A stretch of DNA of 63,062 nucleotides from the NCBI GenBank assembly GCA_028280505.1, contig JANQLO010000017.1, positions 1 to 63,062 on the forward strand, read 5' to 3'. This DNA is from Chromatiales bacterium. Its GTDB lineage: Bacteria; Pseudomonadota; Gammaproteobacteria; Chromatiales; Chromatiaceae. The notes under the pieces were generated by a model. The model was not told the DNA's origin, did not search any database, and saw only the letters and a program-made list of their open reading frames with translations. A program made the translations under genes and the position numbers. Every line of letters begins with the position of its first letter. Positions within the stretch are counted from its first letter, which is position 1. Below, piece after piece: positions 5,674 through 43,347 of this stretch.

Positions 5674-6495
5674 TCAACACTCGGCTTTGATCAACAAGCG
5701 TTTGGCACTACCGCTTTCTTTTTTGACCGGCTTTTCACGTTGGAGCGCCTTGACTTCGTCGCTACCTAATCCCAGTCCGAGGCCGAGTCCCAAGGGGTCG
5801 TCTTCGGGCGGTGGCGATGTCGCGGCCTTTTGACTGGCCTGCACTTCGGGTGAACCCAAGCCCAAACCCAGTCCCAGGCCCAACGGATCGGCCGCAGCCG
5901 GTGGCGCCGTTTTTGTTTGAGCGGATACGGGGTTCACCACCTTGGGGGTCAGCCCTGATGCAGCCACATAATCACCCTCGAAGTAACAGGCGACTGCTTG
6001 GTAGTGCGCACGCTGTACCGGGTCCATCTCCGCGACGCCGGCGCTCTCGGGATCCTTGAGGTAGGCGTGCCAATAGTTATACCCACCGAGTAGCGCGTAA
6101 GCGTCACGCTCGATCAAACGTAGCAACACCGCGGCCTGGGCGGCGTGTGCAGTACCGTTGGAATAGATCACGACTTTACGTTCCGGCGGCAATGTGGCCA
6201 ATGCGTCATCCGACATCAATGCGGCCAACGGGATGTGGCGCGCGCCGTCGATGTGTCCGGCATGAAACTCCGCACGTTCGCGGATATCGATCAGCTCGTA
6301 ATCGCGCTGATCCTTGATGATCCAATCGGCGAGTTCCGGCACCGTGACGTGATCCTGTTCAACGGCGATAGCCTGGGCCAACTCGGCGGCCACACCGACT
6401 CGATCCATCTCGGCCTGTTCGGTACAACCAACCAGCAAGCCGGCAAAGAGCAAACCGGCTGCTAACGGAACGGTCCGGTGCATTCGTCTAATCAT
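5674..6495 (-). CDS. Rhodanese-fold lipoprotein with Ser in place of the catalytic Cys and two Gly-Leu repeats
   Basis: A 273-residue exported protein. The N-terminus is a type II signal peptide with lipobox LLVGC near residue 24. A rhodanese domain follows (about 50-150: ELIDIRERAEFHAGHIDGA), but the active-site loop reads VVIYSNGTAH, so Ser stands where sulfurtransferases have Cys. The C-terminal third carries two copies of DPLGLGLGLGLGS followed by a charged segment, an unusual low-complexity repeat. It overlaps the PsrC-like gene upstream by 4 bases and is the last gene of the cluster. It may bind sulfur compounds or scaffold the enzyme rather than transfer sulfur; this is inference. Confidence 0.8.
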   Translation of the reverse strand: MIRRMHRTVPLAAGLLFAGLLVGCTEQAEMDRVGVAAELAQAIAVEQDHVTVPELADWIIKDQRDYELIDIRERAEFHAGHIDGARHIPLAALMSDDALATLPPERKVVIYSNGTAHAAQAAVLLRLIERDAYALLGGYNYWHAYLKDPESAGVAEMDPVQRAHYQAVACYFEGDYVAASGLTPKVVNPVSAQTKTAPPAAADPLGLGLGLGLGSPEVQASQKAATSPPPEDDPLGLGLGLGLGSDEVKALQREKPVKKESGSAKRLLIKAEC

Positions 6496-7487
6496 TGAGT
6501 CAACCTCATCAACAACGCCGGGTCGAACTGGACGGCGTACTCGCCCCAGGTACTCGCCTGACCGATTTCCACCATGAGATAACGCAGCATGAATCCACCA
6601 TAGACCACCAACAGCGCCGCAGCGAGCCCGAACAAACGATTACCACGCAATGCAACCAGCTCGAACGCCACAGGCAACAGTAGGCCGGGCACCACGAACC
6701 ACAGCCAGAACGGTACGGTGTACTCGCCGCCGAATACCAAGTCCAGCGCACCCAGATGCTGCGCCGCGCCGGTTGCCAGCGTGATCAAAAACAACGTGAT
6801 CATCGCAAGTTCGATGGTGATCAGACCCATATCCGATGTCTCGAAAAAGCGCCGCTCTTTTCCCACCGCACCGGCCAGCAGGGGCAGCACGGCGGCAGTC
6901 GACAAACCGGAAATCAAAAACAACGGCCCGAGCATGCCGGAATTCCAGAACGGCCGTGCACTGAGGGCACTTAGCAGCACGCCTGTGTAAATACCCAAGG
7001 CAACGGCCGACGGAATCACCAACCAAGCGATTAGACGCCGCCGATTCTCGCAAAGATCGAGAATTTGACTACCGCCCGGCAACCGTTCCAACCACCCCGC
7101 CAACATCGGGTAACCGGCACGCAAGGTCGATAAGACCTGCACGATCATCAGAGGGTAAATCAGCACCAACACCCAGGCACCCCATGACATCGGCGAGGCC
7201 GGCTGGAAACTGGTGTAGAAACGGAAGACATGAATCTTGTACTCGAGATCGAGAAACAATGTGGTCATACCGAGCGACAATACGACCGGCGCCCAAAGCG
7301 CAAAGCGATTGTGCGCAAAGGCCAGATCATCCTGTTTACGTGTGAGCACGGCCCAGGCGGCGAATAACATGATCCCCGCCGCCATGCCGCCCATAAACAA
7401 ATAGAAAGCGATCTCCCAGGTCCAGATACCGAGCGACGGATCGATCTTGTCGTTGAAACGGGCGGTAACCAAGACTTCCTCGATCAT
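6492..7487 (-). CDS. NrfD/PsrC-type membrane quinone-interacting subunit
   Basis: A 331-residue integral membrane protein with about eight or nine hydrophobic helices, beginning in GIWTWEIAFYLFMGGMAAG, typical of the short PsrC/NrfD family that exchanges electrons with the quinone pool. A later SARPFWNSGMLGPLFL segment also matches NrfD-type proteins. It lies directly downstream of the FeS and molybdopterin subunits and overlaps the rhodanese lipoprotein gene. Together they form a PsrABC-like enzyme in the order A-B-C. Whether it reduces or oxidises quinone depends on the unknown substrate. Confidence 0.9.
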   Translation of the reverse strand: MIEEVLVTARFNDKIDPSLGIWTWEIAFYLFMGGMAAGIMLFAAWAVLTRKQDDLAFAHNRFALWAPVVLSLGMTTLFLDLEYKIHVFRFYTSFQPASPMSWGAWVLVLIYPLMIVQVLSTLRAGYPMLAGWLERLPGGSQILDLCENRRRLIAWLVIPSAVALGIYTGVLLSALSARPFWNSGMLGPLFLISGLSTAAVLPLLAGAVGKERRFFETSDMGLITIELAMITLFLITLATGAAQHLGALDLVFGGEYTVPFWLWFVVPGLLLPVAFELVALRGNRLFGLAAALLVVYGGFMLRYLMVEIGQASTWGEYAVQFDPALLMRLTQ

Positions 7488-7527
7488 GGTTGCTTCCTCA
7501 CTGCATTGTTCTGCGCAGACCCGGTAT

Positions 7528-8070
7528 TCATATCAGGTAGTACACCTGCGGTTGATTACCCGTCTCCGGCATCAATACCTTGTAGCGACGCGCGCGCAAC
7601 AAACGGCTGACGATACTGTCGCGGTTATCGAGGATACCGAAATACATGCAATGGGTCGGGCAACTGGCGACACAGGCAGGATCGAGTCCCCGGTCGATCC
7701 GATGATGGCAAAAGGTGCACTTATCGACATAGCCTTCGGGGCGCATGAGCATGCGCGCGTCATAAGGGCAAGCGGCGATACAGGCCTTGCAACCGGTGCA
7801 CTTCGCAGCCGTAACCAACACGATGTTGGTGTCTTTCCAATGATGGCTGGCGCCGGTCGGACAACTGGTCACACAGGTCGCATGACGGCAGTGATTGCAC
7901 CGCTCCGAACGGAACTCGGTCTCCAGGTCCGGGTACTCGCCACGGGTCGCCTCGACCACCCAGTCGCGGTTCAGTCCCGCGGGCACTTTGTTTTCGTTCT
8001 TACACGCCACCACACAGTCACCGCAACCGATGCAACTGAGGGTGTCGATCACCATGGCATAGGTGGTCAT
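7528..8070 (-). CDS. PsrB-type electron-transfer subunit with four [4Fe-4S] sites
   Basis: A 180-residue ferredoxin-like protein without a signal peptide. Four cysteine clusters are visible: CIGCGDCVVAC, CNHCRHATCVTSC, CTGCKACIAAC and CTFCHH with a later CVASC. Proteins of this build (PsrB, PhsB, TtrB, DmsB) carry electrons between a molybdopterin catalytic subunit and an NrfD-type membrane subunit. Here it is placed between exactly those two genes, with one base separating it from the catalytic subunit. It is probably exported as a complex with that Tat substrate, since it has no signal of its own. Confidence 0.93.
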   Translation of the reverse strand: MTTYAMVIDTLSCIGCGDCVVACKNENKVPAGLNRDWVVEATRGEYPDLETEFRSERCNHCRHATCVTSCPTGASHHWKDTNIVLVTAAKCTGCKACIAACPYDARMLMRPEGYVDKCTFCHHRIDRGLDPACVASCPTHCMYFGILDNRDSIVSRLLRARRYKVLMPETGNQPQVYYLI

Positions 8071-8071
8071 G

Positions 8072-10261
8072 TCAGCTCACCTCACGCTTGACCAGGGTGA
8101 CGAAACTCGCGCGCATGCCGGTGCTGCCGGCAATCGGGTCGATCTTGACGTTATGCATCAATGCGGCATCGTCGGCACCGACGCCTTGCGTCAGGCGTTG
8201 GCGTTTGTCGGTGTGACCGAAACCGTGCACCATGAACACCGAATCGGGGCGGATGCGTTCTGTCACCCGCACACGGATTCGGTTACTGCGCCGACCCTCG
8301 GGGTTCTGCAGCTCGACATAATCGCCATTGGCAATGCGCAGCGTGGCCGCGGCAGTCGGGTGCACCCACACCGTGTTCTCCGGCATCAATTCGAACAACT
8401 GCGGGTTGTTGGTCGTACGCCCGAAGGTATGCGCCGGGGAACGACCGAAGTTCAGATGGTAGTACCCGGCCGGTGGCCGTTCCGGTGGTGTATAACGCGG
8501 CAGCGGATCCTGGCCGACATCGGCAAGGATGTTCGAATACAGTTCGATCTTGCCGCTCGGCGTATTGAACTGTACGGCTTCGTCAACACCGAAGTAAGGG
8601 GCTGTCTTACGCCCGAACGGTTTAACGCCGATCTGCTGCATCTCCGACAACGAGGAGCCGACCTGTTTGAGTTGCCAATCCAGTACTTCGCTATAGTCCT
8701 TGTAAGGAAAGTACTCGCCCAAACCCAGTCGCTCGGCGATACCCTTGGCCATCCACCAGGCAGGTTTACTCTCGTAGCCCGGTTCAAATGCCGGCATACG
8801 CAGCGCCAGCGTCGGGATGCGTTCCGCCTTGTTGCGGATATCGTCGTAACGTTCGAGATAGGTACATTCGGGCAATACGACATCGGCATAGCCCGTAATC
8901 TCGGCCGGCATGGTATCGATCACAACCATGAGCGCCAATGATTCGGCGGCGGCCTTGATTTGTTCGCCCATGCCCGGCACGGTCATCGGCAGATTGGTCG
9001 CATAGACGAACCAGCCCTTGATAAACGCGTCCGGGCCGATCGAGTGCTCGATCAGCTGGTTGCTGATACCACTGCTGACCAGCGGAAAGTCGCCCTGTAC
9101 GATGGCCCGCCAGTCGCGTTGCGGCTTGGGCGGCCTGGGTGCCGGGTAATGCGGTAACTCGACCTTTTCCTGCCGATAGAATCCCCCCGGCCGACCCCAG
9201 GAGCCGAGCAAGGCGTTCAAGATCGCGATGGCGCGGCAACGCTGCGTGTCGTTTCCGTACCAGGCGGTAAAGCGTCCCGGGTGCACCAGCGAGGCCGGCA
9301 TGGCCTGTGCCATGGTGCGTGCCGTTGCGCGAATGACGCCCGGTTCCAAACCGGTTTCCAGATAAGCCCATTCCGGATTGAAGGCTTGTACGTATGCAAC
9401 CAATTGCTCGAAGCCGCTGCAATAGCGCGCGACATAGTCATGGTCGTAAAGATCTTCGTTGATCAGTACGTTCATCCAGGCCAGTAGCAGAGCGATATCG
9501 GTGCCGGGCTTGATCGGTAGCCAGTAATCCGACTTCGAGGCCGCCACCGAAAAACGCGGGTCAACGGTGATCAGCGTCGCACCCTTGTCCAGTGCCTGAA
9601 CCCAGGTCTGTACCTGACTGTTGTGCAGGTTCTCGCCCAGGTGCGAACCGATCAGCACGATGCAGCGCGAGTTGGCCATGTCGGTGCGATCGGGGGAACC
9701 GACACCCTCACCATAGGTGAGGCCAAAGGCGGTTGCACGCGGGCCCCGACACTGCGCGAAGGAGGGGTGCGCATAAGCGTGCGACCCAAACGCTCGAAGC
9801 ATGTGGCGAAAGTGTTTACCGCCATCACCATGCGAGAGCAGCGCCAGCCGGTCCCTGCCGTGTTGCTCACCAATCGCATTCATGCGCTTGGCAATGAAGT
9901 CGAAAGCCTCATCCCAGCTCACCGGCATGAACTGTTGCTGGCCGCCTTTTTCGACACGCAGCAACGGCTGACGTAAGCGGTCCGGATCCAGGTAGGCACC
10001 GATGCCACCGGTACCACGGGTACACAGCCGGCCCTCACAATGCGGGTCGTCCGGATGGCCAACCACTTTCCAGGGTTTGCCATCCTCCTGATACAGCGTG
10101 CCGGCGCACTGCCAGAAGCACATATTGCAGACCGTCGGACTGGTGGTTACCTGGCCGGTGCCGGGCAACGGCTTGCTCGCACAACCACCGAGCAGCACCG
10201 GCATGGTGCCGCCGACGCCCAGCGCTGTCGAGATCTTGAGGAATTCGCGTCGATTCATCAC
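8072..10261 (-). CDS. Tat-exported molybdopterin oxidoreductase catalytic subunit (PsrA/PhsA-like)
   Basis: A 729-residue member of the DMSO-reductase superfamily. The N-terminus has a twin-arginine motif (NRREFLK) followed by a hydrophobic stretch ending LLGGC, which could also serve as a lipobox. Cysteines 45, 48, 52 and 80 give the C-x2-C-x3-C-x27-C pattern of the FS0 [4Fe-4S] cluster. Cys171 in HPSFAQCRGP is the likely molybdenum ligand, as in polysulfide/thiosulfate reductases. The rest follows the bis-MGD fold, ending with a C-terminal dinucleotide-binding domain. Family candidates are polysulfide, thiosulfate, tetrathionate, sulfur or selenite reductases. The neighbouring rhodaneses favour a sulfur or selenium substrate. 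No TorD-type chaperone gene is nearby. Confidence 0.9.
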   Translation of the reverse strand: MMNRREFLKISTALGVGGTMPVLLGGCASKPLPGTGQVTTSPTVCNMCFWQCAGTLYQEDGKPWKVVGHPDDPHCEGRLCTRGTGGIGAYLDPDRLRQPLLRVEKGGQQQFMPVSWDEAFDFIAKRMNAIGEQHGRDRLALLSHGDGGKHFRHMLRAFGSHAYAHPSFAQCRGPRATAFGLTYGEGVGSPDRTDMANSRCIVLIGSHLGENLHNSQVQTWVQALDKGATLITVDPRFSVAASKSDYWLPIKPGTDIALLLAWMNVLINEDLYDHDYVARYCSGFEQLVAYVQAFNPEWAYLETGLEPGVIRATARTMAQAMPASLVHPGRFTAWYGNDTQRCRAIAILNALLGSWGRPGGFYRQEKVELPHYPAPRPPKPQRDWRAIVQGDFPLVSSGISNQLIEHSIGPDAFIKGWFVYATNLPMTVPGMGEQIKAAAESLALMVVIDTMPAEITGYADVVLPECTYLERYDDIRNKAERIPTLALRMPAFEPGYESKPAWWMAKGIAERLGLGEYFPYKDYSEVLDWQLKQVGSSLSEMQQIGVKPFGRKTAPYFGVDEAVQFNTPSGKIELYSNILADVGQDPLPRYTPPERPPAGYYHLNFGRSPAHTFGRTTNNPQLFELMPENTVWVHPTAAATLRIANGDYVELQNPEGRRSNRIRVRVTERIRPDSVFMVHGFGHTDKRQRLTQGVGADDAALMHNVKIDPIAGSTGMRASFVTLVKREVS

Positions 10262-10273
10262 AACACCGGTCCT

Positions 10274-11563
10274 TCAGAGTTTGAAGCTACCGTCTTTGGC
10301 AATCACGATGGTTTCGTTGAGGAAACGGTTCTTGATGCCCTTTTGGCGCAAGGTCTCGTGCGCCATCTCGGCACGGATACCATTGGCACAATAGATCAAC
10401 ACTTCTTTGTCCTTCGGCAACCCGGCGATCATGTCCTCGAGCTTTTCCAGTGGGATATGGCGGGCACCGATAATGACGCCTTCCGCGGCTTCCTGATCAC
10501 TGCGAACGTCGACTAGCACGACACCTTCACCGGATTCTTGTAGCGCAACGAATTCCTCCGGGGCAATCGCGCCGGGCGCGAGTTTTTTCTGGAATACGAC
10601 CCGGGTCGCCGCCGGTCCGCCTGCACTGGGCAACGCGGCCGCCCGCCAACCATTGAACCCGCCTTTCAGCACCGTCACCTTGTTGTATCCCCAGCTCCGC
10701 AACTCCTTGTAAGCGAGCAGTGCAGCCGGTGCGGTATGACTGTCGGCGTACACGATCAACGGCGCCCGCATATCGGAAACACCGGGAAGTTGCGCGATCG
10801 TCTGCCGATCAATGAACTGTTGCGTCATCGCTTGCAGCTGGGCAGTGGGCAGCGCGACCGCACCTCGGATATGTGACTGATTGCTTTGCGCCACATCACG
10901 TACATCCAAGATCACATGCTGTGGGTTGAGGTTCTTCGCCAGCCACGCGGGCTCGGCGTGCACAGGCAGCTTGGCCTTCTTCCAACCCGGCAACCCGGCC
11001 TGAAACCCTTTGAGATTGGTATAACCGGCTTGTTGTGCCAACTTAACGGCAACACCGGTATACGGGCAGGTCGGACCACCGCAGTAGAACACCAACATCG
11101 TATTCTTGTCCGTCGGCAACTTACTCAGAAAATCTTCATCTTTCGGGAAAGCCGACTTGGCACCGGGGACATGTCCGCCACCAAAGCGCTTGCCGGGACG
11201 GGCATCGAATAGGTGGTAAGGCTGTCCACCTGTCATGATGCCGATCAATTGCTCGATACTGATCTCGACACCCGGCGGAAGACCGAACACGATCTTCTTG
11301 ATGCTGCTGGCCGGTTTACCGGGTTCACGCTGAACCTCGATCAAATCCGGTGGACCGAAATCCTTCAATCCGGACGCCCCGTCGTATTGGGTGTTTGGAT
11401 CGGTACGAACCACGACCTTGCTGACCGAATTGTCTTTGCCCTTGACATCGATCTGGATCGTACCCGCCTGCTTCGATACCACCGCGATCCGACCTTTGAC
11501 CGTCTCAGCATGGACGATGCCGATGCATGTGGCGATGAGAAAAACGAGTATGAGTCTTTGCAT
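10274..11563 (-). CDS. Periplasmic triple-rhodanese protein
   Basis: A 429-residue protein with a Sec signal peptide (cleavage near residue 20, IVHA). A small beta-rich domain follows (about 20-95), then three rhodanese domains. The first has an active-site loop with Cys (VFYCGGPTCPYT). The second has IVYADSHTAP, where Asp replaces the Cys. The third has the classical LIYCANGIRAEM. Two domains can therefore carry persulfide and the middle one probably cannot. It lies 12 bases upstream of the molybdopterin subunit. Rhodaneses are known to feed sulfur to sulfur reductase in Aquifex (SbdP), so a sulfur-delivery or sulfur-acceptor role for the enzyme is a reasonable inference. Confidence 0.88.
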   Translation of the reverse strand: MQRLILVFLIATCIGIVHAETVKGRIAVVSKQAGTIQIDVKGKDNSVSKVVVRTDPNTQYDGASGLKDFGPPDLIEVQREPGKPASSIKKIVFGLPPGVEISIEQLIGIMTGGQPYHLFDARPGKRFGGGHVPGAKSAFPKDEDFLSKLPTDKNTMLVFYCGGPTCPYTGVAVKLAQQAGYTNLKGFQAGLPGWKKAKLPVHAEPAWLAKNLNPQHVILDVRDVAQSNQSHIRGAVALPTAQLQAMTQQFIDRQTIAQLPGVSDMRAPLIVYADSHTAPAALLAYKELRSWGYNKVTVLKGGFNGWRAAALPSAGGPAATRVVFQKKLAPGAIAPEEFVALQESGEGVVLVDVRSDQEAAEGVIIGARHIPLEKLEDMIAGLPKDKEVLIYCANGIRAEMAHETLRQKGIKNRFLNETIVIAKDGSFKL

Positions 11564-11681
11564 TGTCGTCTCTCCTTATTTAGCGGTTATGCGGATACCC
11601 GACCATTCGGGTACCACCGTCCCAAACTCTTGTTCAATGCAACTTGGTGCCCGAACACCGATGTTCGACGCACGTTCCGAT

Positions 11682-12953
11682 TCAATCGGCGTTATGCCGT
11701 CGTTCGAATCCGTCCCAGTTGCATTGCTCACGTGCCTGTTGTCGGCGCAGGTACTCACAGTGAACCGGTAACGCGGCCTTGGCCAACAACGTGAACAACA
11801 AAAACCCGAGTGCCCATATGCCGATCGAGACCATGACCTCGATCAGGCTGGGTGTGTATTCATAAATCTCGCCGATTGGTGTGGGCACGAATGCCGGAAC
11901 GATCAGGCCCATGCCTTTTTCGATCCACACGCCGACGATAATCAGCACGAATGCGATGTTCATGTAGATGGGGTTATGGCGCAGCGGATGGATCATCAGG
12001 ATCACGACTGCGATGCAGAGCAACGCAATGGCGGTCCAGATCCATGGCGTCAATGCGGCATGGCCATCCAGTCCAAAGTAAAGATAACGCGCCGAGGCCG
12101 CATGTTCGCCTTCGTTGTAGAACTCGGTGAACAATTCGGCGAGCATGAAGAACAAGGTCACTTGCAATGCGATGGTCGCGACCAGGGCCAAATGATTGAT
12201 GACGCTCTGGCGAATCGGGTAATCGCTAATCGCACGGATGATCTGCAGGCCGATCGCCATCAATGCCGGTCCTGACGCGAACGCCGACGCGATAAAGCGC
12301 GGCGCCAGCAATGCATGATTCCAGAACGGCCGGCCCGAATTCGCCGAATACAAAAATGCGGTCACCGTGTGGATAGAGATGGCCCAGAAGATCGCCAGCA
12401 ACACCCACGGAAAGTAGCGGCGCTCGTTCGGCTCTTTGTTCTGGTAATGGTTGTAAACGATGTAGAACGAAATCCCGACATTCAGTAACAGATAACCGTT
12501 CAAGACGATCACGTCCCACGCCAACATGGACTGAGGAAAGTTGAACCGACCGATACCCGGTATCAGATGCCAAAAACGATCCGGCCGACCAAGATCGACA
12601 ACGACGAACAGGATCGCCATGGTCACGGCGGCGATCGCCATGGTATCGCCCATCAGAACCACGTCTTTGATATCACGGCGATGGAAGATATAGGCCGGTA
12701 CGACTAACATCACGGCCGCCGCGGCGACGCCGACCAGGAATGTGAAGTTCGCAATATAAAAACCCCACGACACCTGATTGGTCATATGGGTTACGACCAG
12801 ACCATCGCGCAATTGCAAATAATAGTGCCAGCCGCCGAGTAGAATCAGCGCGAACAGAAAACCGACCCAGACCCAATAGGCCGGCGGCCCACGGAACATA
12901 TGGCCGAGGCTCTGGAGCACGAACCGCAACAATGTCGGTTTGGACTCAGGCAT
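11682..12953 (-). CDS. DsrP/NrfD-type membrane subunit
   Basis: A 423-residue membrane protein with about ten hydrophobic helices. It belongs to the longer NrfD branch that includes DsrP, HmcC and ActC. Visible signatures are QVSWGFYIANFTFLVGVAAA at the second helix, VVVDLGRPDRFWHLIP and SGRPFWNHALLAPRF. The protein is expected to exchange electrons with quinones and pass them to the periplasmic FeS partner encoded just upstream (8-base overlap). A 118-base gap separates it from the triple-rhodanese gene. A secondary promoter there is possible, but none was identified. Confidence 0.9.
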   Translation of the reverse strand: MPESKPTLLRFVLQSLGHMFRGPPAYWVWVGFLFALILLGGWHYYLQLRDGLVVTHMTNQVSWGFYIANFTFLVGVAAAAVMLVVPAYIFHRRDIKDVVLMGDTMAIAAVTMAILFVVVDLGRPDRFWHLIPGIGRFNFPQSMLAWDVIVLNGYLLLNVGISFYIVYNHYQNKEPNERRYFPWVLLAIFWAISIHTVTAFLYSANSGRPFWNHALLAPRFIASAFASGPALMAIGLQIIRAISDYPIRQSVINHLALVATIALQVTLFFMLAELFTEFYNEGEHAASARYLYFGLDGHAALTPWIWTAIALLCIAVVILMIHPLRHNPIYMNIAFVLIIVGVWIEKGMGLIVPAFVPTPIGEIYEYTPSLIEVMVSIGIWALGFLLFTLLAKAALPVHCEYLRRQQAREQCNWDGFERRHNAD

Positions 12954-13884
12954 CGCGGTAGTACCAGAACTTGGGCTCGGTCCCCAGTTCTTCTTTCAAG
13001 CGGAACACCGCTTTGTGTTTCAGCACATAACGGATTTCGCTGTCGGGATCGAGCAGATTGCCGAACACGCGGGCACCGGTCGGGCAGGCTTCCTGGCAGG
13101 CCGGCTGGCGGCCGTTGCGGGTTCGTTGGACACAGAAGTGGCATTTCTCGACCACGCCGCGTGGACGCGGACGATTACTGAGATAATGGGTATCCGGATT
13201 GATGTCGTCCGGCGCCAAATCGGGCGTGGTCCAATTGAAATGGCGTGCCTGGTAAGGGCAGGCCGCCATGCAATAGCGACAGCCGATACACCAATTGTAA
13301 TCAACCACGACGATACCGTCCGGCTCGGTCCAGGTTGCCTCGACCGGACAGGCCTTTACGCAGGGCGGGTTGTCGCACTGCATGCATTGCATCGGCAGAT
13401 AATATTTGCCTTCAACCGGCACCGTGTCGTGATCGTAGTAGTGATCGCCGTGGCGCAGATCGAGACTGCCGTGATCCATTTCGACCACCCGAATGTACTG
13501 GGTGTCGGGCGCGAGATTGTTTTCCTCGACACAGGCATGGACGCAATCACGATACCCGCGGCACTTGGAGATATTGATGGCATAGCCGAACACCACGCCT
13601 TCCCGTGGCGGCGTGTTGCGGCAATCGATATCGACACCGTAGCGACGCTTGGCCTGGCGCTCGATACGTTCGAGTACCGCGTCGATCTCGTCCTTGTTCA
13701 TGCGCTGATAGTGTTGCTGGAAAAAATCGGCGAAGGCGTCCGACAAGGTACTGCCACCCCAAGCGCCGCCACTGGCGGCCACCGTCCCGGCCGCACCGGC
13801 GGCCGTGGCCAGGCCTTTGATGAACCGCCGGCGGGCGAGGTCGCTGACCTGCTCCGGTGATTTGTCCTTGTCAGGACGCTTCAT
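12946..13884 (-). CDS. Tat-exported DsrO/HmcB-like ferredoxin subunit
   Basis: A 312-residue protein with a Tat signal (LARRRFIKGLATAAG) about 18 residues from the start. Four iron-sulfur binding regions follow: CRGYRDCVHAC, CMQCDNPPCVKAC, CIGCRYCMAAC and CHFC with CQEAC. This is the architecture of DsrO and related periplasmic ferredoxins that connect NrfD-type membrane proteins to multiheme cytochromes. It overlaps the DsrP-like gene by 8 bases and the tetraheme cytochrome gene by 14. Neither dsrM, dsrK nor a sulfite reductase is in the window, so this is a DsrOP-like pair outside the dsr context. Confidence 0.9.
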   Translation of the reverse strand: MKRPDKDKSPEQVSDLARRRFIKGLATAAGAAGTVAASGGAWGGSTLSDAFADFFQQHYQRMNKDEIDAVLERIERQAKRRYGVDIDCRNTPPREGVVFGYAINISKCRGYRDCVHACVEENNLAPDTQYIRVVEMDHGSLDLRHGDHYYDHDTVPVEGKYYLPMQCMQCDNPPCVKACPVEATWTEPDGIVVVDYNWCIGCRYCMAACPYQARHFNWTTPDLAPDDINPDTHYLSNRPRPRGVVEKCHFCVQRTRNGRQPACQEACPTGARVFGNLLDPDSEIRYVLKHKAVFRLKEELGTEPKFWYYRDA

Positions 13885-14758
13885 CGTTCTTCACCGTCTG
13901 TTTGGCGGTCGGCACCGCTGTTGCCGGTTCCCCCATGCCTTTGTCTTGCCGGGCCTGAGCCTCGCGCTGCCAATCCGGTGTATGGCCCGGTCCGGCATGC
14001 CCACGCTGTGATTCGGGCACCCAATGCTCGGGGCGGGGCAGGCCGACCCGCATTTCCGGGCCGGACATCGGCTTGCGCGGATCGAACGCCGGGCGATGCT
14101 GGTAATGACACGCCGTGCAACTCAGTACTTGGCGCGTCCCCTGCCAATCACCGACCCGTTTACCATGCGCGCCATTTGCCCAGTCATAAGCCTGGCGCGA
14201 ATGACACTGACCGCAAACGATGTACGCATCGGCAAAATCCACCGCCTCACCTTCGAGTGTTTTGAGGCCGCTGCCGTTCTTGAGATCGTGACAGGTGAAA
14301 CACCAAAACCCACCTTTACCGTGCAAGCCATGTTCGAGCTCGAAGTTATCGTGCGGTGACTTGAGCTCGCGCGGCTCGGGATTGCTGACAACCCATTGAT
14401 GGCAGTTCGAGCAGGGGTGCATATCGCTATCACGCTGACTCGGGATCACCTCGAAAGAGGGCAAGCCGGCGAAAATCGGATAGGCCGGGCGGGGCGTGGA
14501 CGAAAAGTCCGGCACCGCGTTTTCCGCGCTACGTGCAAAATCGGCAGCGTCGACAGCGGGCGTTTTCGTCTCCGCCGGCGCCACCGATCCCGATTTGCCG
14601 GTGACCGGGGTATCGTCCATCGCTTCGAACGCGCCCCAGTCCCAGTCGCCACCATTATCCTGAGCGTAGACCCGGTTCCCCAGGGTGGCCAGCGCGAGGC
14701 TGACCACCAGGGTGACGAGCCAGACTGTATAGCCGATAGGCCGTTTGCCGCGCTTCAC
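13871..14758 (-). CDS. Periplasmic tetraheme c-type cytochrome
   Basis: A 295-residue exported cytochrome with an N-terminal signal or anchor helix (about residues 10-32) and a long Ala/Pro/Thr-rich linker to about residue 95. Four CxxCH heme sites follow: CSNCH (116-120), CFTCH (153-157), CGQCH (182-186) and CTACH (214-218). The C-terminal 75 residues are charged and hemeless. It is larger than triheme DsrJ and not recognisable as NrfB. It overlaps the FeS subunit gene and likely takes electrons from, or gives them to, the DsrO-like protein. The family is not identified. Confidence 0.85.
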   Translation of the reverse strand: MKRGKRPIGYTVWLVTLVVSLALATLGNRVYAQDNGGDWDWGAFEAMDDTPVTGKSGSVAPAETKTPAVDAADFARSAENAVPDFSSTPRPAYPIFAGLPSFEVIPSQRDSDMHPCSNCHQWVVSNPEPRELKSPHDNFELEHGLHGKGGFWCFTCHDLKNGSGLKTLEGEAVDFADAYIVCGQCHSRQAYDWANGAHGKRVGDWQGTRQVLSCTACHYQHRPAFDPRKPMSGPEMRVGLPRPEHWVPESQRGHAGPGHTPDWQREAQARQDKGMGEPATAVPTAKQTVKNDEAS

Positions 14759-14795
14759 GAGCCGCCCCCATCGAGTTGCTGAAATACCTCGACTG

Positions 14796-16061
14796 CTACA
14801 ACCGGATCTCGGCAGAGGCCGCGAGCTTCGGCTTGAGCAAATCGTCCGGGATCTTGCCTTTCAGCTTGCCTTTGATCGGCGGCAGCAGCAGATCATACAA
14901 AGCCTCGGCGCGAACGATACGGGTAGCCGACTCGATTGGAATCTCGTATTCGACGGTGCGTGTCTCGTTCGGCTTCAGCCGTGTATCACTAAGCACCTGG
15001 GTGGCCTTGGGCGGGATGGTGGGCTTGCCGTCCGCACCGCCGAGGGTGTACCAGAAGGCCGACTTGGGGTCGTCCTTGATCGGATGAACCTTATAGTTCT
15101 TCCACAGCTCTTTTCCATCCTTGTCATAGCTGGCGATACGGATAAAAAAGTTGCGGAAAGGCGCACCAGTCGGATAGGCGTGCGGTAAACGGTTGCGCAG
15201 CGTCAACGTTGCCTTGAGCATATCGCCTTCACGCCTGGTTTCCATGGTCATCGCGATGCCGCGGGTGATCATCTTGGCATCATGACCGCCGGCCATGGTG
15301 TGATCGGGGATGCTCACGGTCTCGCCCGGGACGACTTTACCGTCTTTCATCTTCGGCACCGTCACGATTGCCATATGGCAGGACTGACAATTGATGAAAC
15401 TCGCCGATGCTTCGTATTCGTCGCCCGTGCGGCACAAGGGGGTGCCATGGAAATTACTGCGCTTTTCATGGCAACCCATGCAGGCAGCGTTGCTTTTGAA
15501 CAACGCGGCCTTATTGCCTTCCATCGGGATGGGGTGATGAACCGGCGTAGGCCAAGTAGCACCTTCGGGCGTGCGCCCGGTGGTGTAGGTGATGCCCGAC
15601 GGACCATACAGCTTGGTCGTATCCATTTCGTAAGCATCGATACCATACGCCGGCTTGCCGTTCGGTTTAGTCGTGCCTTTGAACTTGCTGAAGGAATGAC
15701 AGGTGGTACAGCCCACGCCTGCCGCATAGGCCGGTTTGGCATCCAGTTTGGTCTTCTTCTCGAAGGCAGCGACGGGGGCGTGGCATTTGAGGCAGACCGG
15801 GTATTGACCCTTTTTGCTCTTCAGGCCTTCCTGCAGAGGATCGCCCATGACCTGGCGATAAAAGGCGCCGTGAATAGGATCTTTTAATGCCGAACTGTTG
15901 GCATGCATGGACCCTGCCCACTGGGTATAAATCTCTTCATGACACTGTTTGCAGGCCTTGGCTTCGACATGATGTACCGAAGCATCAACACTCATTGCGG
16001 GGGCAGCAAAAAACATCGCGGTGCCCAAGCTGGCCAACCAACGGGCGATACGCAAGTTCAT
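14796..16061 (-). CDS. Periplasmic pentaheme cytochrome c, c554-like
   Basis: The ATG at 16061 is chosen because GGAGG lies just upstream and it yields a clean signal peptide (MNLRIARWLASLG... cut near residue 24); the frame extends 23 codons further upstream. The mature protein has five CxxCH motifs: CKQCH (37), CLKCH (90), CTTCH (118), CMGCH (194) and CQSCH (225). The first part, with QWAGSMHA after the first heme, resembles cytochrome c554-family domains. The last 190 residues are hemeless and beta-rich. It is the first gene of the nine-gene cluster and therefore nearest the FNR-like promoter region. It probably links the cluster to a soluble electron donor, acceptor or substrate. Confidence 0.88.
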   Translation of the reverse strand: MNLRIARWLASLGTAMFFAAPAMSVDASVHHVEAKACKQCHEEIYTQWAGSMHANSSALKDPIHGAFYRQVMGDPLQEGLKSKKGQYPVCLKCHAPVAAFEKKTKLDAKPAYAAGVGCTTCHSFSKFKGTTKPNGKPAYGIDAYEMDTTKLYGPSGITYTTGRTPEGATWPTPVHHPIPMEGNKAALFKSNAACMGCHEKRSNFHGTPLCRTGDEYEASASFINCQSCHMAIVTVPKMKDGKVVPGETVSIPDHTMAGGHDAKMITRGIAMTMETRREGDMLKATLTLRNRLPHAYPTGAPFRNFFIRIASYDKDGKELWKNYKVHPIKDDPKSAFWYTLGGADGKPTIPPKATQVLSDTRLKPNETRTVEYEIPIESATRIVRAEALYDLLLPPIKGKLKGKIPDDLLKPKLAASAEIRL

Positions 16062-36498: not shown

Positions 36499-38934
<2,436 letters not shown>

Positions 38935-39001
38935 CTAGGCTTGGGGGAACAATCGAACAACGGTGTCCGATCTGGAGAAGATCGGGTGATTATAACATTC
39001 T

Positions 39002-40078
39002 TTAGTGGGGCACTAGGTTACCGTGTTCCACGTGGAACGTTCGAGAGTCGCTTTGAGGTTCGGGCAACGCGCTCTTTTCAATTTTACTTAAAAACACCTG
39101 TGCGTCGCGACACTCAAATTCGTATAGGAGTCGCGCCTTGTTCTCATTGTCTAGCTCAGCAGCAAGATCATCGATAATCAGCACCGGCGTACGACCTCCT
39201 TGTCGCGCAACCAGATCGAACAGCGCAAGGTTCAATGCAAGGACCAACAGTTTTTGTTGACCACGTGACAAGCGCTTTTCAGCAAGATCTTCATCAGCAA
39301 GAAGTTCGAGCTCGGCACGCTGTGGACCTACCGATGTAAATCCCATTTTTAGATCGGTTCCCTTTTTTTTGTCGAGCTGATCGGAGATTGCAGAACTTTG
39401 TTGCCAACCTTTACGGTAACGATGGTCGACAGAAAAACCACATGCCCATTTCTCTATCAAGTTTGAAACGTTTGGCATTAATGCCTGAATCAATCGTAGT
39501 CTGGCAGCCGTGATCTGCTCCGCACACACGGCAAACTCACGATCCCAAATCGCTACCATATCGACTGACTTTTCCCGTAGAGCAGCATTGCGTTGACGGA
39601 GGATTTTGTGAAACTGCGCCAATATCGCCAGATAACCCTGTTCCACGTGGAACACACCCATATCCAGGAAACGTCGTCGTACTTCCGGCCCAAAACCGAG
39701 AAACTGTTGTGGCTGAGACCCTATCCACTGAATCGGAAGCGTTTCGGCCATTTCAGATCTTCGTTGCACGGCCTCGCCATTCAGACGACAAACCAAATTC
39801 GACTTCTCCCGCCGAACACCTAAAATCGATGAAGTACCAGCACGAGGTTCGTCAATTCCAACGACGACTTGAGCATAATCGGCACCCTTGCGAATCATCG
39901 GGCCCGCATCCTTATGCCGGAAAGTTCGACCACGCCCTGCCAGATAAAGTGCCTCGAAGACAGACGTTTTACCTGCACCGTTATTGCCAACAATGAAATT
40001 GATTCCGGTACATGGCTGAAGCAACAAGTGGCGGATAACGCGTAAGTCAGAAACCTCCAGTTTGGTGATCTGAACCAT
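39002..40078 (-). CDS. recF: DNA replication and repair protein RecF
   Basis: A 358-residue SMC-like ATPase acting in gap repair. It starts ITKLEVSDLRVIRH, has the Walker A NFIVGNNGAGKTSVFEAL, the signature LSRGQQKLLVLALNLAL and Walker B VLIIDDLAAELD. Its coding sequence contains two exact parS-type palindromes, at residues about 142-147 (FHVEQ) and at the very C-terminus (FHVEH). A terminator-like hairpin separates it from dnaN. Confidence 0.97.
   Translation of the reverse strand: MVQITKLEVSDLRVIRHLLLQPCTGINFIVGNNGAGKTSVFEALYLAGRGRTFRHKDAGPMIRKGADYAQVVVGIDEPRAGTSSILGVRREKSNLVCRLNGEAVQRRSEMAETLPIQWIGSQPQQFLGFGPEVRRRFLDMGVFHVEQGYLAILAQFHKILRQRNAALREKSVDMVAIWDREFAVCAEQITAARLRLIQALMPNVSNLIEKWACGFSVDHRYRKGWQQSSAISDQLDKKKGTDLKMGFTSVGPQRAELELLADEDLAEKRLSRGQQKLLVLALNLALFDLVARQGGRTPVLIIDDLAAELDNENKARLLYEFECRDAQVFLSKIEKSALPEPQSDSRTFHVEHGNLVPH
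39024..39039. other. parS-like centromere site 1 (in recF)
   Basis: TGTTCCACGTGGAACG: 15 of 16 bases match the perfect palindrome TGTTCCACGTGGAACA, a variant of parS used by chromosomal ParB. It encodes FHVEH near the recF end. Confidence 0.85.
39639..39654. other. parS-like centromere site 2 (in recF)
   Basis: TGTTCCACGTGGAACA is a perfect 16-base palindrome matching the parS consensus. It lies about 3.4 kb from the dnaA-rpmH interval and within recF. Confidence 0.92.
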
Positions 40079-40105
40079 TAGCTATCCGACTTTAAATGAC
40101 ATATG

Positions 40106-40127
40106 AAAAAGGGGCCTAATGGCCCCC
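40106..40127 (-). terminator. Intrinsic terminator between dnaN and recF
   Basis: On the minus strand GGGGCC-ATTA-GGCCCC followed by five T, 29 bases after the dnaN stop. It would reduce transcription from dnaN into recF. Confidence 0.75.
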
Positions 40128-40155
40128 TCGGTATATGCTAAGTACATAGGATGCT

Positions 40156-41256
40156 TCACAACCGCATGGGCATAACAACATAGCGACATTCGGTCGAATC
40201 CTTAGGGGTGATCAAACTGCTTGAATTCGAATCTATTACGGCCATCTGAACTTGGTCGCCATCCAGCACACCGAGCACATCAAGCAAGTACCCGACGTTG
40301 AAGCCTATCGTCATTTCATCGCCCTGGTAGTCGACCTCAATCTCTTCCTCGGCCTCATCCTGTTCCGGGTTGTGGGCCTGAAGATGTAACAGACCCTTAC
40401 TCAACCTGAAACGGATGCCACGGTACTTTTCGTTCGACAAGATTGCTGTTCTTGCCAGTGCATGCTTCAACTCGTCTTTATCGCCCAGCAATAATGACGT
40501 TTCACCATTCGGCATTACGCGCTCGTAATCGGGAAAACGACCATCGATCAGCTTACTGGTAAAACTGCTATCACCGAGGTGAACTCGAAGATGACTATTG
40601 CTGATCTCGAACTGCGCTTCCTGATCCGATTCACCTAACAAACGGCCCAGCTCGACAACTGCTTTACGCGGTAATATCACCTGCAAATCGATGCTCGTTT
40701 CATCATCGAATGCAGCATCACACAATGCGAGTCGATGGCCATCCGTTGCGACCGCTCGAACCCGACCCGGCCTTAGTTCCAACAACAAACCGTTAAGATA
40801 GTAACGAACATCCTGTTGGGCCATTGCAAACTGTGTCTTGTCGATAAGTCGCTTCAAAACTCCAACCGGTAGTGAAAAGGTTTCGCTTGGGTTGCTTGGC
40901 TCGATACTTGGGTAGTCCTGCGCCGGCAACATCCCCAAGGTATAACGTCCTCGACCTGAACGCAGTACCGCTTTCTCGCCTTCTATCTCCAGAGTCAAGG
41001 CAGCACCGTCCGGTAAAGCTTTGCAGATATCCATGAGTTTACGTGCCGGCAATGTGAACTCATGTTCTCCTTTGCACTCGACCTGTGCCTGAGTACGCAA
41101 TTCGACTTCGAGATCCGTTGCCGTTAAGAGCAAGGCGTTGTTTTTCACTGCAATCAGCACATTGGCCAGAATCGGTAAGGTCTGTCGACGTTCGACGACT
41201 CCCACTACCTGTTGTAGTGGTTTCAAAAGATCGTCCCGATTTGCACTGATTTTCAT
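40156..41256 (-). CDS. dnaN: DNA polymerase III sliding clamp (beta subunit)
   Basis: A 366-residue clamp that forms a ring dimer around DNA. It starts MKISANRDDLLKPLQQVVGV and shows the three repeated clamp domains; VEVDYQGDEMTIGFNVGYLL and the C-terminal YVVMPMRL are typical. The length is normal. It is preceded by an AT-rich gap containing a DnaA box and followed by a hairpin terminator. Confidence 0.98.
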   Translation of the reverse strand: MKISANRDDLLKPLQQVVGVVERRQTLPILANVLIAVKNNALLLTATDLEVELRTQAQVECKGEHEFTLPARKLMDICKALPDGAALTLEIEGEKAVLRSGRGRYTLGMLPAQDYPSIEPSNPSETFSLPVGVLKRLIDKTQFAMAQQDVRYYLNGLLLELRPGRVRAVATDGHRLALCDAAFDDETSIDLQVILPRKAVVELGRLLGESDQEAQFEISNSHLRVHLGDSSFTSKLIDGRFPDYERVMPNGETSLLLGDKDELKHALARTAILSNEKYRGIRFRLSKGLLHLQAHNPEQDEAEEEIEVDYQGDEMTIGFNVGYLLDVLGVLDGDQVQMAVIDSNSSSLITPKDSTECRYVVMPMRL

Positions 41257-41488
41257 TCTGCTTGTTCTCCGCTATCTAAATAGCAAAAAATCTTTTATTT
41301 AAAACTTGTTATTATTATTAAGTACCGCTCAGATCTTGAGCAGTTTTAATTTTAACTTTAATTTCAATTATTTATAACGTTTTACATGGACCGAATAGCT
41401 GCGTTCAATGACTGGGTTGCCTGTAGAGCCTTTGTGGATAACTTAACGGTGTTTTACCGGTTCGTTTTTTCTCCCTCGGTATCGAACA
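41257..41488. other. AT-rich dnaA-dnaN interval with a DnaA box
   Basis: About 41270-41390 is strongly AT-rich (runs such as TTTTATTTAAAA and TTATTATTATTAAG), resembling an unwinding element or a promoter region. A perfect DnaA box (TGTGGATAA) is at 41433-41441. This may be a minor origin element or the DnaA-regulated dnaN promoter. Confidence 0.55.
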
Positions 41489-42844
41489 TCAATTGCTGAG
41501 GGTTCTCAACAGGTTGTTAAAATCCTCTGCGACGCGTTGGTCCGTCTCCTTTAACTCTGCGATCTTACGCGTTGCATAGAGCACCGTGGTGTGGTCCCGC
41601 CCGCCGAAAGCTTCTCCAATCTCGGGTAGGCTGTGGTTCGTCAGTTCCTTTGCGAGTGTCATCGCGATCTGTCGCGGTCGGGCAATGGTACGGCTGCGTT
41701 TTCCTGACAGCAGATCCGAGGTGCGGATTTTGTAATATTCCCCGACTGTACGCTGAATATTGTCGATTGTGACCTGTTTGTCCTGCGCCGCAATCATGTC
41801 GCGCAGTGCCTCTTTGGCGAATTCCATAGTAATGGGTCGCCCAGTGAATTGTGAATTGGCGATGATGCGCCGCAAGGCGCCTTCGAGTTCACGGATGTTT
41901 GAACGAACCCGTTTACCGATGAAAAACGCGACTTCGTTCGGTAGTTCGACGTCGAATAGTTGCTGTGTTTTGCTTTTAAGAATCGCTACTCGCGTTTCCA
42001 GATCCGGTGGTTCGACCGCAACCGTCAATCCCCAACCAAAACGCGATTTGAGTCGGTCCTCCAGACCGTCGACTTCCTTCGGAAATCGGTCACTGGTCAA
42101 AATGATTTGCTGCTGCGATTCGAACAAGGCGTTGAAGGTGTGGAAAAATTCTTCCTGTGAACGTTCTTTGCCGCCAAAAAACTGCACATCGTCGATCAAA
42201 AGTGCGTTGACCGAGCGCATTCTGCGTTTGAAATTGTCGATGGTGCCATGTTGTAGCGCTTTGACCATTTCGGCGACGAAGCCCTCGGAGTGCATGTACA
42301 ACACCTTGGCATCGGGGCGGTTCTCCAATATGCGATTGCCGACGGCATGCATCAAATGTGTTTTGCCCAGGCCGACACCGCCGTAGATAAACAGCGGGTT
42401 GAACACCGCACCGGGGTTGTCACCGATCTGCATACTTGCAGCGCGAGCCAATTGGTTCGATTTTCCCTCTACGAAACTGTCGAAGGTGAACTCGGGATTG
42501 GTATTGGATTTAAACGAGTCCCTTGGTTCCGCGGGCATAGCAGTCCTTTGCGGTGATCGCGTGTCCATGGTTTGCGGTTTTTCAGATGCTGCCGATCGCG
42601 GTGCACTTCCGATTTCCAAACTGATGCTCAGAGAATCGCCATTGCCCAAGTCGTCGATGTAGCTGCGCAATCGTTCCAGGTAATGCTTTTTGACCCAATC
42701 GAGAACAAAGGCATTTGGCGCCATGAGTCGTAGGCGCTCGGTTTCCTGCACACAGTGCAGCGGCCTGATCCAGGTATTGAATTGCTGATTGGATATCTCG
42801 TTGCCGAGCCGGTCGAGGCAGTGTTGCCAGACATCGATGTTCAT
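41489..42844 (-). CDS. dnaA: Chromosomal replication initiator DnaA
   Basis: Start at the ATG at 42844 ([20 protein letters not shown]), the conserved N-terminus; the frame extends 26 codons upstream. The product has 451 residues: domain I, a variable linker to about residue 120, the AAA+ domain with [20 protein letters not shown] and [13 protein letters not shown], and the DNA-binding domain with [13 protein letters not shown]. It binds the DnaA boxes reported in this window and melts the origin. Confidence 0.98.
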
Positions 42845-43347
42845 ATTCTTGTCAAAAATACTCAGCGTCTCACCTACCCGATAGCGGGAGGGTGATATCA
42901 AAACGAACAAATTTCGGTGCAATAACCTGAATGTGAGAGATCTGTCGGCGTTTGTTTTACCCGTCCTGCTTTAGATCCGAGACGCAATGCAATGCAATGC
43001 ATCAGGTTGTCCGTCACTGACAGTCCGGCTTCTTGTCGGAATGCTTTGTCACGATCGGCTCACACAGGCCAAGTGTAATCGCTCTAGAGCCAGTTATCCA
43101 CAGGGCATTTCAGTCTCATGACGATATAAAAATAGGTGCTTTGAAAAAGAGTGAACGCTCACTACTAAAAGCAATGAGAAGATGTCCCACTTGTCCGGGA
43201 CAAGTCTCGACAATCGGCTGATGGGATTGACGGGATCATGTCGATCTATTACATTTTCGCCCCCTTTGCAGAAGCGCCATCATTCATGGCCGGACGGCTG
43301 CATCCCGGGTTTTTAGTTAACGACTCATTCAATTCGGATACACGGTC
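42845..43347. other. Candidate oriC interval between dnaA and rpmH
   Basis: A 503-base gap at the point where transcription diverges. It has one perfect DnaA box TTATCCACA (43094-43102), an AT-rich stretch with GATATAAAAATAGG near 43124, a short triplication of GCAAT (42990-43004), a near-palindrome ACTTGTCC-G-GGACAAGT at 43189-43205 and the rpmH promoter. Only one exact DnaA box was found, fewer than a typical oriC cluster. No gene is apparent. Confidence 0.5.
43227..43255 (+). promoter_or_regulatory. Sigma-70 promoter of rpmH
   Basis: TTGACG at 43227-43232 and TACATT at 43250-43255 with the optimal 17-base spacer. The start point would be about 85 bases before rpmH. Confidence 0.6.

Follow-up and report, generated by a model that had tools for sequence, protein, structure and literature searches.

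The stretch of DNA analyzed here (the window; 63,062 nucleotides from a Chromatiales bacterium, contig JANQLO010000017.1) holds nine open reading frames that follow one another on the minus strand from position 16061 down to 5674, and this report concerns the sulfur redox system that they may encode. We labeled the genes, in order of transcription, cytA, cytB, fesO, nrfD1, rhd3, moA, fesB, nrfD2, and rhdL; the genome of the window is G000, and other genomes and loci carry our own G and L numbers. A first-pass annotation, made from the letters of the window without database searches, had described nine genes on one strand joined by overlaps or short gaps, which is borne out by the exact coordinates and by domain searches that confirm each gene's role. 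The intergenic distances from cytA to rhdL are 37, -14, -8, 118, 12, 1, 40, and -4 nt, and the 118-nt gap between nrfD1 and rhd3 is the only one long enough to house a separate promoter easily.

The first four genes, hereafter the add-on, encode two multiheme cytochromes and an iron-sulfur/membrane pair. CytA (14796-16061) is an exported pentaheme cytochrome c with five CxxCH motifs, a Cytochrome_C554 domain, and homology to PDB 5ze8 (325 bits, E 6.7e-96), which together with synteny place it in the small pentaheme family (Thermochromatium tepidum c552/ExtKL type); against NCBIfam ExtKL it scores 67.7 bits, below the cut-off of 250. CytB (13871-14758) is a tetraheme cytochrome c with four CxxCH motifs, of the kind found in the dsrOhPh-tetrahaem type module discussed below, and four-heme homologues adjoin the module in the free-standing loci L267, L268, and L271. 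FesO (12946-13884) is a DsrO-like protein of 4x[4Fe-4S] type, exported by the twin-arginine translocation (Tat) pathway, with an ARRRFI Tat motif, 16 cysteines, and a score just below the NCBIfam DsrO cut-off (191 vs 200 bits). NrfD1 (11682-12953) is an NrfD membrane quinone subunit that passes the DsrP model NF045798 (400 vs 350 bits).

The remaining five genes form the core. Rhd3 (10274-11563) is exported and combines an N-terminal beta domain with three rhodanese domains, as judged from three Pfam stretches, an alignment of 17 homologues, and a structure model of moderate confidence (m52be2c5c9174; predicted local distance difference test score, pLDDT, 79). MoA (8072-10261) is a Tat-exported, PsrA-type bis-molybdopterin guanine dinucleotide (bis-MGD) enzyme with a Tat motif and Molybdopterin, Molydop_binding, and Fe4S4 domains. 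It is followed by the PsrB-type 4x[4Fe-4S] subunit FesB (7528-8070; Fer4_11 and other domains, 17 cysteines) and the PsrC-type NrfD membrane anchor NrfD2 (6492-7487; PF03916, 132 bits; PDB 2vpw_C, 24 bits). RhdL (5674-6495), the last product, is a lipoprotein (lipobox LVGC) of rhodanese fold whose long, predicted disordered tail ends in a cysteine.

In an effort to place this arrangement in other genomes, moA was searched in GTDB genomes, and the best 80 of the 117 relatives found (L021-L100) make up the set of 80 loci over which counts are given below. The same nine-gene order was recovered in L021, L025, L027, L030, and L031 (genomes G001, G169, G010, G002, and G004) and, interrupted by a contig break within moA, in G481 (L261 and L262), so that seven genomes, window included, hold the complete nine in order. 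In an eighth, G327, the four-gene add-on lies divergent from the core at a single locus, and in G534 the add-on and the core lie on contigs that both end within the core. Synteny is retained in other genera and families. Purifying selection is indicated by the ratios of nonsynonymous to synonymous substitution rates (dN/dS), which span 0.05-0.31 over 17 pairwise comparisons of genes with their L030 and L031 counterparts (rhdL with L031 only). The check proposed in the first-pass annotation, whether the nine genes stay together across taxa, thus comes out with seven genomes in order and one divergent.

The two modules also co-occur across genomes. A sample of 369 genomes from the class contained nrfD1 at E <= 1e-60 in 15, of which the 8 at >=55% identity (partial in G241) were counted and the 7 at 37-46% set aside from the main count; moA (>=61% identity) was present in 7 and both genes in 5 (Fisher p = 2e-8). 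The association persists with all 15 nrfD1 genomes (p = 1e-6), without the window genome (7e-7), and without G000 and G534 (2e-5), in tests that take genomes as independent, G327 and G534 belonging to one family. Wherever the neighborhood was readable, an nrfD1 preceded by cytA was accompanied by moA in the genome (4/4; G000, G327, G388, G481), and an nrfD1 with cytB and without cytA was not (3/3; G241, G291, G455). In a family sample of 194 genomes, moA at E <= 1e-100 was found in 10 (7 at >=64% identity) and nrfD1 at E <= 1e-30 in 23 (7 at >=66%), with 6 genomes common to the two close sets; the exceptions are G032, with a moA fragment at a contig end and no close nrfD1, and G080, taken up below. 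Conserved order, co-occurrence, and dN/dS rule out a chance string of genes, and the nine-gene cluster is a real unit. The nrfD1 tree is poorly resolved, with moA-linked rows not forming one clade, and does not decide whether add-on and core were joined once. A cytA orthologue of 68-69% identity was also seen in G141 (L229 6840-8108), on a contig that holds nothing else of the cluster, and G141 has no moA at the threshold used.

The core also stands alone in Gammaproteobacteria as five genes for a rhodanese, a PsrA-type molybdoenzyme, an iron-sulfur protein, an NrfD, and a rhodanese-fold protein. Loci of Bacteroidota, Marinimicrobia, and others have a pair of YeeE-type permease genes between NrfD and the rhodaneses, and by the record titles of its matches the moA family extends over Pseudomonadota, Bacteroidota, Marinimicrobia, Calditrichota, KSB1, and Aminicenantes. 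Among the 80 loci, fesB and nrfD2 lie within 7.5 kb of moA in all 69 that have at least 1.8 kb of downstream sequence. Where at least 4.5 kb is available downstream, a rhodanese-fold gene is present in 8/8 gammaproteobacterial and 47/48 other loci, and a split YeeE/YedE-type sulfur permease (PF04143) in 0/8 and 48/48, respectively; L026 is counted as gammaproteobacterial from its tree position, despite the record title Halobacteria archaeon. Sulfane-sulfur handling is the constant company of the moA family. The permease invites an explanation in which an arm on RhdL hands sulfane sulfur or thiosulfate to the YeeE-type protein and MoA trims the chain to a suitable length, respiration being secondary. 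The pair near moA in every one of the 48 loci, and upstream of moA in L270 (G397, outside the 80-locus set), speaks for such an import relay; the eight gammaproteobacterial loci with enough sequence have no YeeE pair near the core, none was seen beside the window cluster, and we consider the relay distinctly improbable. As to L026 itself, it carries the gammaproteobacterial core form and groups inside that clade, and its contig is probably mis-binned.

MoA aligns over its full length with PsrA of Thermus thermophilus (PDB 2vpw_A, 622.8 bits) at 43.7% identity (316/723). Cys171 of MoA (codon 9749-9751) aligns with Thermus Cys173, which we take to be the molybdenum ligand, and the positions of His145 and Arg332, presumably pocket residues, can be followed likewise. 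All three are identical in 84/84 members of the moA family; in two more distant proteins resembling polysulfide reductase (PSR), C173 is kept and H145 and R332 differ. An assignment to the PhsA equivalog (NCBIfam NF012032) was rejected, at 462.5 bits against a cut-off of 694. The locus thus presents the features of the PsrABC type: an exported bis-MGD subunit with a predicted cysteine molybdenum ligand, the pocket residues, and a four-cluster iron-sulfur protein and an NrfD in the operon. The Thermus complex (PDB 2VPW) has the same three kinds of subunit and shares the pocket residues and the ligand cysteine with MoA; unlike it, the present system is extended by a protein with three rhodanese domains, a pseudo-rhodanese with an arm, and another NrfD module, in a host with UbiA and with MenD not over its cut-off. 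The moA tree was built from 37 selected rows and its outer branches are long, which leaves the place of Thermus PsrA in it unsure.

The simplest account of such an enzyme would be an ordinary periplasmic Psr/Phs operon for anaerobic sulfur respiration, in which RhdL docks or scavenges, its terminal cysteine is structural, and the DsrOhPh-like module is an unrelated neighbor sharing a promoter. The Thermus PSR is, after all, the closest solved relative, and 7 of the 12 gammaproteobacterial members of the 80-locus set showed no add-on (L024 is cut short and L026 has only 4 kb upstream). PsrABC-type, rhodanese, and porin genes also occur together in sulfur-reducing Deferribacterota (PMC11896075). 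The co-occurrence of add-on and core far above chance tells against this account, as do the RhdL termini and the quinone genes considered below, and we regard it as rather unlikely.

RhdL had been called a rhodanese lipoprotein in the first-pass annotation. The lipobox and the rhodanese stretch and fold are there; the catalytic cysteine of a rhodanese is not. Pfam and Foldseek agree on the fold (rhodanese-domain entries make up almost all of the 50 Foldseek rows shown), and model m361e5a436bd3 is confident over a core of about residues 40-177 and predicts a disordered tail of about 180-273. At the catalytic position the window protein has Ser112 (codon 6160-6162), and a cysteine occupies this column in 0/18 gammaproteobacterial and 1/79 other homologues; with the catalytic cysteine replaced, an active rhodanese was rejected. 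The final residue, Cys273 (codon 5677-5679), is the proposed sulfur-carrying cysteine. A cysteine ends all 18 gammaproteobacterial homologues and 72/79 untruncated RhdL-class homologues from other phyla, 78/79 of which have one within the last two positions. These endings are mostly -GGC after a lysine-rich stretch, and in 43/72 the terminal cysteine is the only one in the protein, which argues against an ordinary Psr/Phs operon with a merely docking RhdL. Cys-ending open reading frames make up 3/995 of a background selected for a length of at least 150 residues, in which some frames may be no real genes. Two other rhodanese classes from the same loci served as internal controls: the catalytic cysteine is present in 13/14 and 10/11, a terminal one in 3/14 and 0/11.

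The terminal cysteine is seen in Pseudomonadota, Bacteroidota, Marinimicrobia, Calditrichota, and Aminicenantes, and in Gammaproteobacteria it is written with both codons (13 TGC, 5 TGT) ahead of all three stop codons. A 34-row alignment (A1) has only D70, R72, and C273 invariant; its rows (10 of the 18 gammaproteobacterial and 24 other) were hand-picked after the endings were known, so the invariance of C273 is partly by choice; the counts above were taken without such picking. As far as these alignments tell, what is new here is that the last gene encodes no rhodanese enzyme and that its terminal cysteine is nearly always kept. In L264 (6437-8601, G388), rhdL directly follows moA, the two overlapping by 4 nt; neither fesB nor nrfD2 intervenes or was seen elsewhere on the contig, and the add-on lies on another contig (L263). 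This arrangement hints that MoA and RhdL are partners. The tail of the window protein (gene 5674-6495) also contains two PLGLGLGLGLG repeats, and a GLGLG motif recurs in 12/18 gammaproteobacterial rows.

From these sequence features we propose that RhdL may be a sulfur-carrier arm that feeds the Psr-type site, in a layout like that of SoxY, which bears its sulfur-binding cysteine on a flexible arm (PMC11237559). The likeness is one of proposed layout and not of fold: Pfam and Foldseek give RhdL a rhodanese fold, it has a membrane anchor, and no SoxY homology was seen in Pfam. Chemical precedent for a persulfide reaching such a site exists in the bis-MGD enzyme CaMES, for which resulfuration by a persulfide on a protein has been proposed (PMC9516567). 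A targeted search of the open-licence literature, in the portions available, found no described rhodanese with a C-terminal cysteine. Rhd3, for its part, can be a true sulfurtransferase, to judge by its active-site cysteines, present in domain 1 (CGGPTC) and domain 3 of 17/17 rows and in domain 2 of 0/17 (one fragment row excluded). The idea in the first-pass annotation that the rhodaneses supply the molybdoenzyme with a zero-valent sulfur, polysulfide, polythionate, or selenium species is upheld as to a link of zero-valent sulfur with rhodaneses, and with a YeeE permease in other phyla; as put there, it is not supported for RhdL, whose catalytic cysteine is replaced in 18/18. In G327 (L259 7746-10507), rhd3 occurs in two tandem copies between an ExtM-like gene and moA.

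The add-on had been read as a DsrOP-type module. DsrO- and DsrP-like family matches support that much, and with the PsrA match and its ligand cysteine they make the pairing of PsrABC- and DsrOP-type modules noted in the first-pass annotation one conserved unit; the add-on is, however, not Dsr. Domain and family searches found no DsrM, DsrK, or DsrJ among the nine genes, and a dsr operon proper lies elsewhere in the genome (L154; genes named by eye from translations), its DsrP reaching only 72 bits; in the tree, nrfD1 falls in a distinct clade. Membership in the Dsr pathway was accordingly rejected. The DsrP and DsrO scores and the separate dsr operon make cytB-fesO-nrfD1 fit the dsrOhPh-tetrahaem locus. 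That locus was reported in 2026 from cable bacteria, Desulfobulbales, and Gamma- and Betaproteobacteria, with no more than a speculated role, in which quinone electrons would reach the periplasm through it and, in cable bacteria, pass towards the conductive fibres (PMC13047784). Both have a DsrO-/DsrP-like pair and an adjacent tetraheme cytochrome, apart from dsrMKJOP and often in sulfur oxidizers with reverse dissimilatory sulfite reductase (rDsr); the likeness is one of description. Unlike that locus, ours is preceded by a pentaheme cytochrome gene and followed by a Psr-type core, a link that the available part of PMC13047784 does not describe.

Two further published sets resemble the add-on by description only. 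TDIS_0606-0609 of Thermosulfurimonas and DBT_2326-2329 of Dissulfuribacter comprise two multiheme cytochromes, an iron-sulfur protein, and an NrfD-type anchor, with nitrite or tetrathionate/polysulfide as suggested substrate (PMC4911364, PMC5276818); they differ in adjoining a nap operon, and no Psr-rhodanese core is reported in the available parts of those papers. CytA itself is homologous to the small pentaheme cytochromes (T. tepidum c552, PDB 5ZE8; ExtKL) and sits here with DsrOhPh-like proteins. Relatives of cytA occur in 104/194 family genomes, and of eight paralogue loci (L231-L238), L231, L232, L235, L237, and L238 have it beside an octaheme and a tetraheme gene, L233, L234, and L236 not. 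In L232 the tetraheme is NapC/TorC-like and the octaheme has no strong match to any curated octaheme family.

The c552/ExtKL family, which published work connects with cytochrome filaments of archaea (PMC11976967), suggests a different role, in which the nine genes would be a gammaproteobacterial counterpart of Geobacter ext (extHIJKLMNOPQS), with CytA and a nearby ExtM-like cytochrome carrying electrons outward to selenite, tellurite, or elemental sulfur or selenium. Geobacter ext has a rhodanese and a pentaheme in common with our locus, relatives of the window cluster have an ExtM-like and a porin gene, and ExtI loss impairs selenite reduction in Geobacter (PMC5877670). By BLAST, the neighborhood of the core includes an ExtM-like 11-heme cytochrome in L025, L026, L027, L029, L075, L259, L261, L266, and L270, and an ExtI-like porin in 7/40 other loci. 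Nonetheless, all Ext matches scanned (ExtM-like in L025, L259, and L261 and the porin in L093 were checked against NCBIfam) fall below curated cut-offs, no ExtM-like gene or porin was seen adjoining the window cluster, and the window locus does not show the set of ExtKL, ExtM, and ExtO over curated cut-offs at one locus. Geobacter ext, moreover, uses a Rieske/cytochrome b module in place of NrfD, and no PSR enzyme is listed for it in the part of PMC5877670 available. Export of electrons to chalcogens is, on this evidence, improbable. Elsewhere in G000, L155 (8270-10651, contig C9) has an ExtM-like 12-heme cytochrome (206 of 800 bits), with similar matches in genomes without close moA.

Quinone genes bear on the direction of the reaction, which the first-pass annotation had not decided. 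UbiA scored over its cut-off in 12/12 moA genomes tested and MenD in 4/12 (G255, G388, G397, G534). MenD was over its cut-off in 0/8 genomes with modules that are linked on contigs or were read as linked (G000, G001, G002, G004, G010, G169, G327, G481), a contrast (0/8 vs 4/4) that includes four genomes of one genus and, in the second group, G534, whose modules are possibly linked, and for which no p-value is used. The potential of ubiquinone is about +0.1 V and that of polysulfide/sulfide about -0.26 V, which makes oxidation by ubiquinone downhill and polysulfide reduction by ubiquinol steeply uphill; in a UbiA-positive genome with MenD not over its cut-off, this stands against an ordinary sulfur-reducing Psr/Phs operon. 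The presence of UbiA, the absence of MenD over its cut-off, these potentials, and the rDsr operon favor, without proving, ubiquinone-coupled, oxidative (reverse-Psr) operation in this host. Menaquinone organisms with the core may run it in either direction. Reverse operation of Psr in sulfur oxidizers has been suggested before (PMC8359478).

We put at roughly one half the probability that this cluster encodes a periplasmic redox system for sulfane sulfur, built of two coupled membrane modules, with the sulfur chain held on RhdL. MoA, FesB, and NrfD2 would exchange electrons between the quinone pool and this chain, which would be not only free polysulfide but also bound to the C-terminal cysteine of RhdL in persulfide or polysulfide form. 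We infer that this cysteine carries sulfur and enters the molybdenum site. The pseudo-rhodanese fold would be a docking body tethered to the membrane, and the cysteines of Rhd3 domains 1 and 3 would load or unload its long, flexible arm. FesO-NrfD1, CytB, and CytA would act as a quinone:cytochrome c oxidoreductase of dsrOhPh-tetrahaem type, connecting the pool that the core uses to hemes in the periplasm, perhaps on the outer surface. In the host of the window, sulfide and carrier-bound sulfane would likely be joined to a longer chain, with electrons passing to ubiquinone.

Several observations weigh against this carrier-bound system or parts of it. In L021, rhd3 is split across two reading frames; in G080, fesO-nrfD1 and cytA lie on separate contigs and there is no moA at the threshold used; and a promoter and terminator scan was uninformative (1 promoter-like site vs 6.1 in shuffles). 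Psr, Phs, and Sre are not separable by sequence (PMC8359478), so the substrate of MoA is only inferred and may be thiosulfate or another compound. Of the 16 genomes with dsrOhPh-tetrahaem, 5 are without sulfur metabolism (PMC13047784), and the add-on itself therefore need not be a sulfur system. The RhdL homologues of other phyla are only 15-25% identical to the window protein, and one of the 79, from L032 (136 residues), has no cysteine near its end. Gammaproteobacterial rows commonly have further cysteines, at the lipobox column (13/18) and at column 170 (16/18), so the terminal one could pair with another cysteine. As to quinones, a partial MqnA-family match in G000 is the single MqnA/D match over cut-off among the 12 genomes, and G388 and G534 have moA and the add-on with MenD present, so the system is not strictly bound to ubiquinone.

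Each module is already known separately, as is a periplasmic Psr set, psrA1B1CDE of Sulfurimonas (cited in PMC10045233). Neither the nine genes as one unit, nor the statistics of their linkage, nor an arm of this kind with a terminal cysteine was found in the portions of the open-licence literature searched. The earlier remark that no described system has both modules thus stands within that literature, where the Deferribacterota genes (PMC11896075) come nearest. Psr-like molybdoenzymes are common in sulfur-cycle surveys, with substrate and direction unreadable from sequence; a conserved carrier-type cysteine would give one large clade of them a mechanism testable at a single residue. The linkage gives the DsrOhPh-tetrahaem complex a conserved sulfur-redox partner in free-living sulfur oxidizers. 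More tentatively, the core may represent a widespread, unrecognized carrier-bound sulfur respiration in at least five phyla, based on a Psr-type enzyme whose sulfur chains are bound covalently to the terminal cysteine of a membrane-anchored pseudo-rhodanese arm. In some Gammaproteobacteria, a dsrOhPh-tetrahaem/pentaheme complex would wire it to the network of periplasmic hemes. If true, it would be the first functional partner for the orphan complex of cable bacteria.

Relatives of nrfD1 at 43-46% identity that were inspected (L192-L195, L197, L198, L157) belong to a different, free-standing iron-sulfur/NrfD module with a three-heme cytochrome. The C-terminal half of this cytochrome resembles CytB in the six compared (L192-L195, L197, L198), and L192, L194, L198, and L157 have an additional small monoheme gene on the same strand. 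In the window itself, gyrB, recF, dnaN, and dnaA (36499-43000; translations judged by eye) lie near the minimum of the cumulative GC skew, which places the operon probably near the replication origin.

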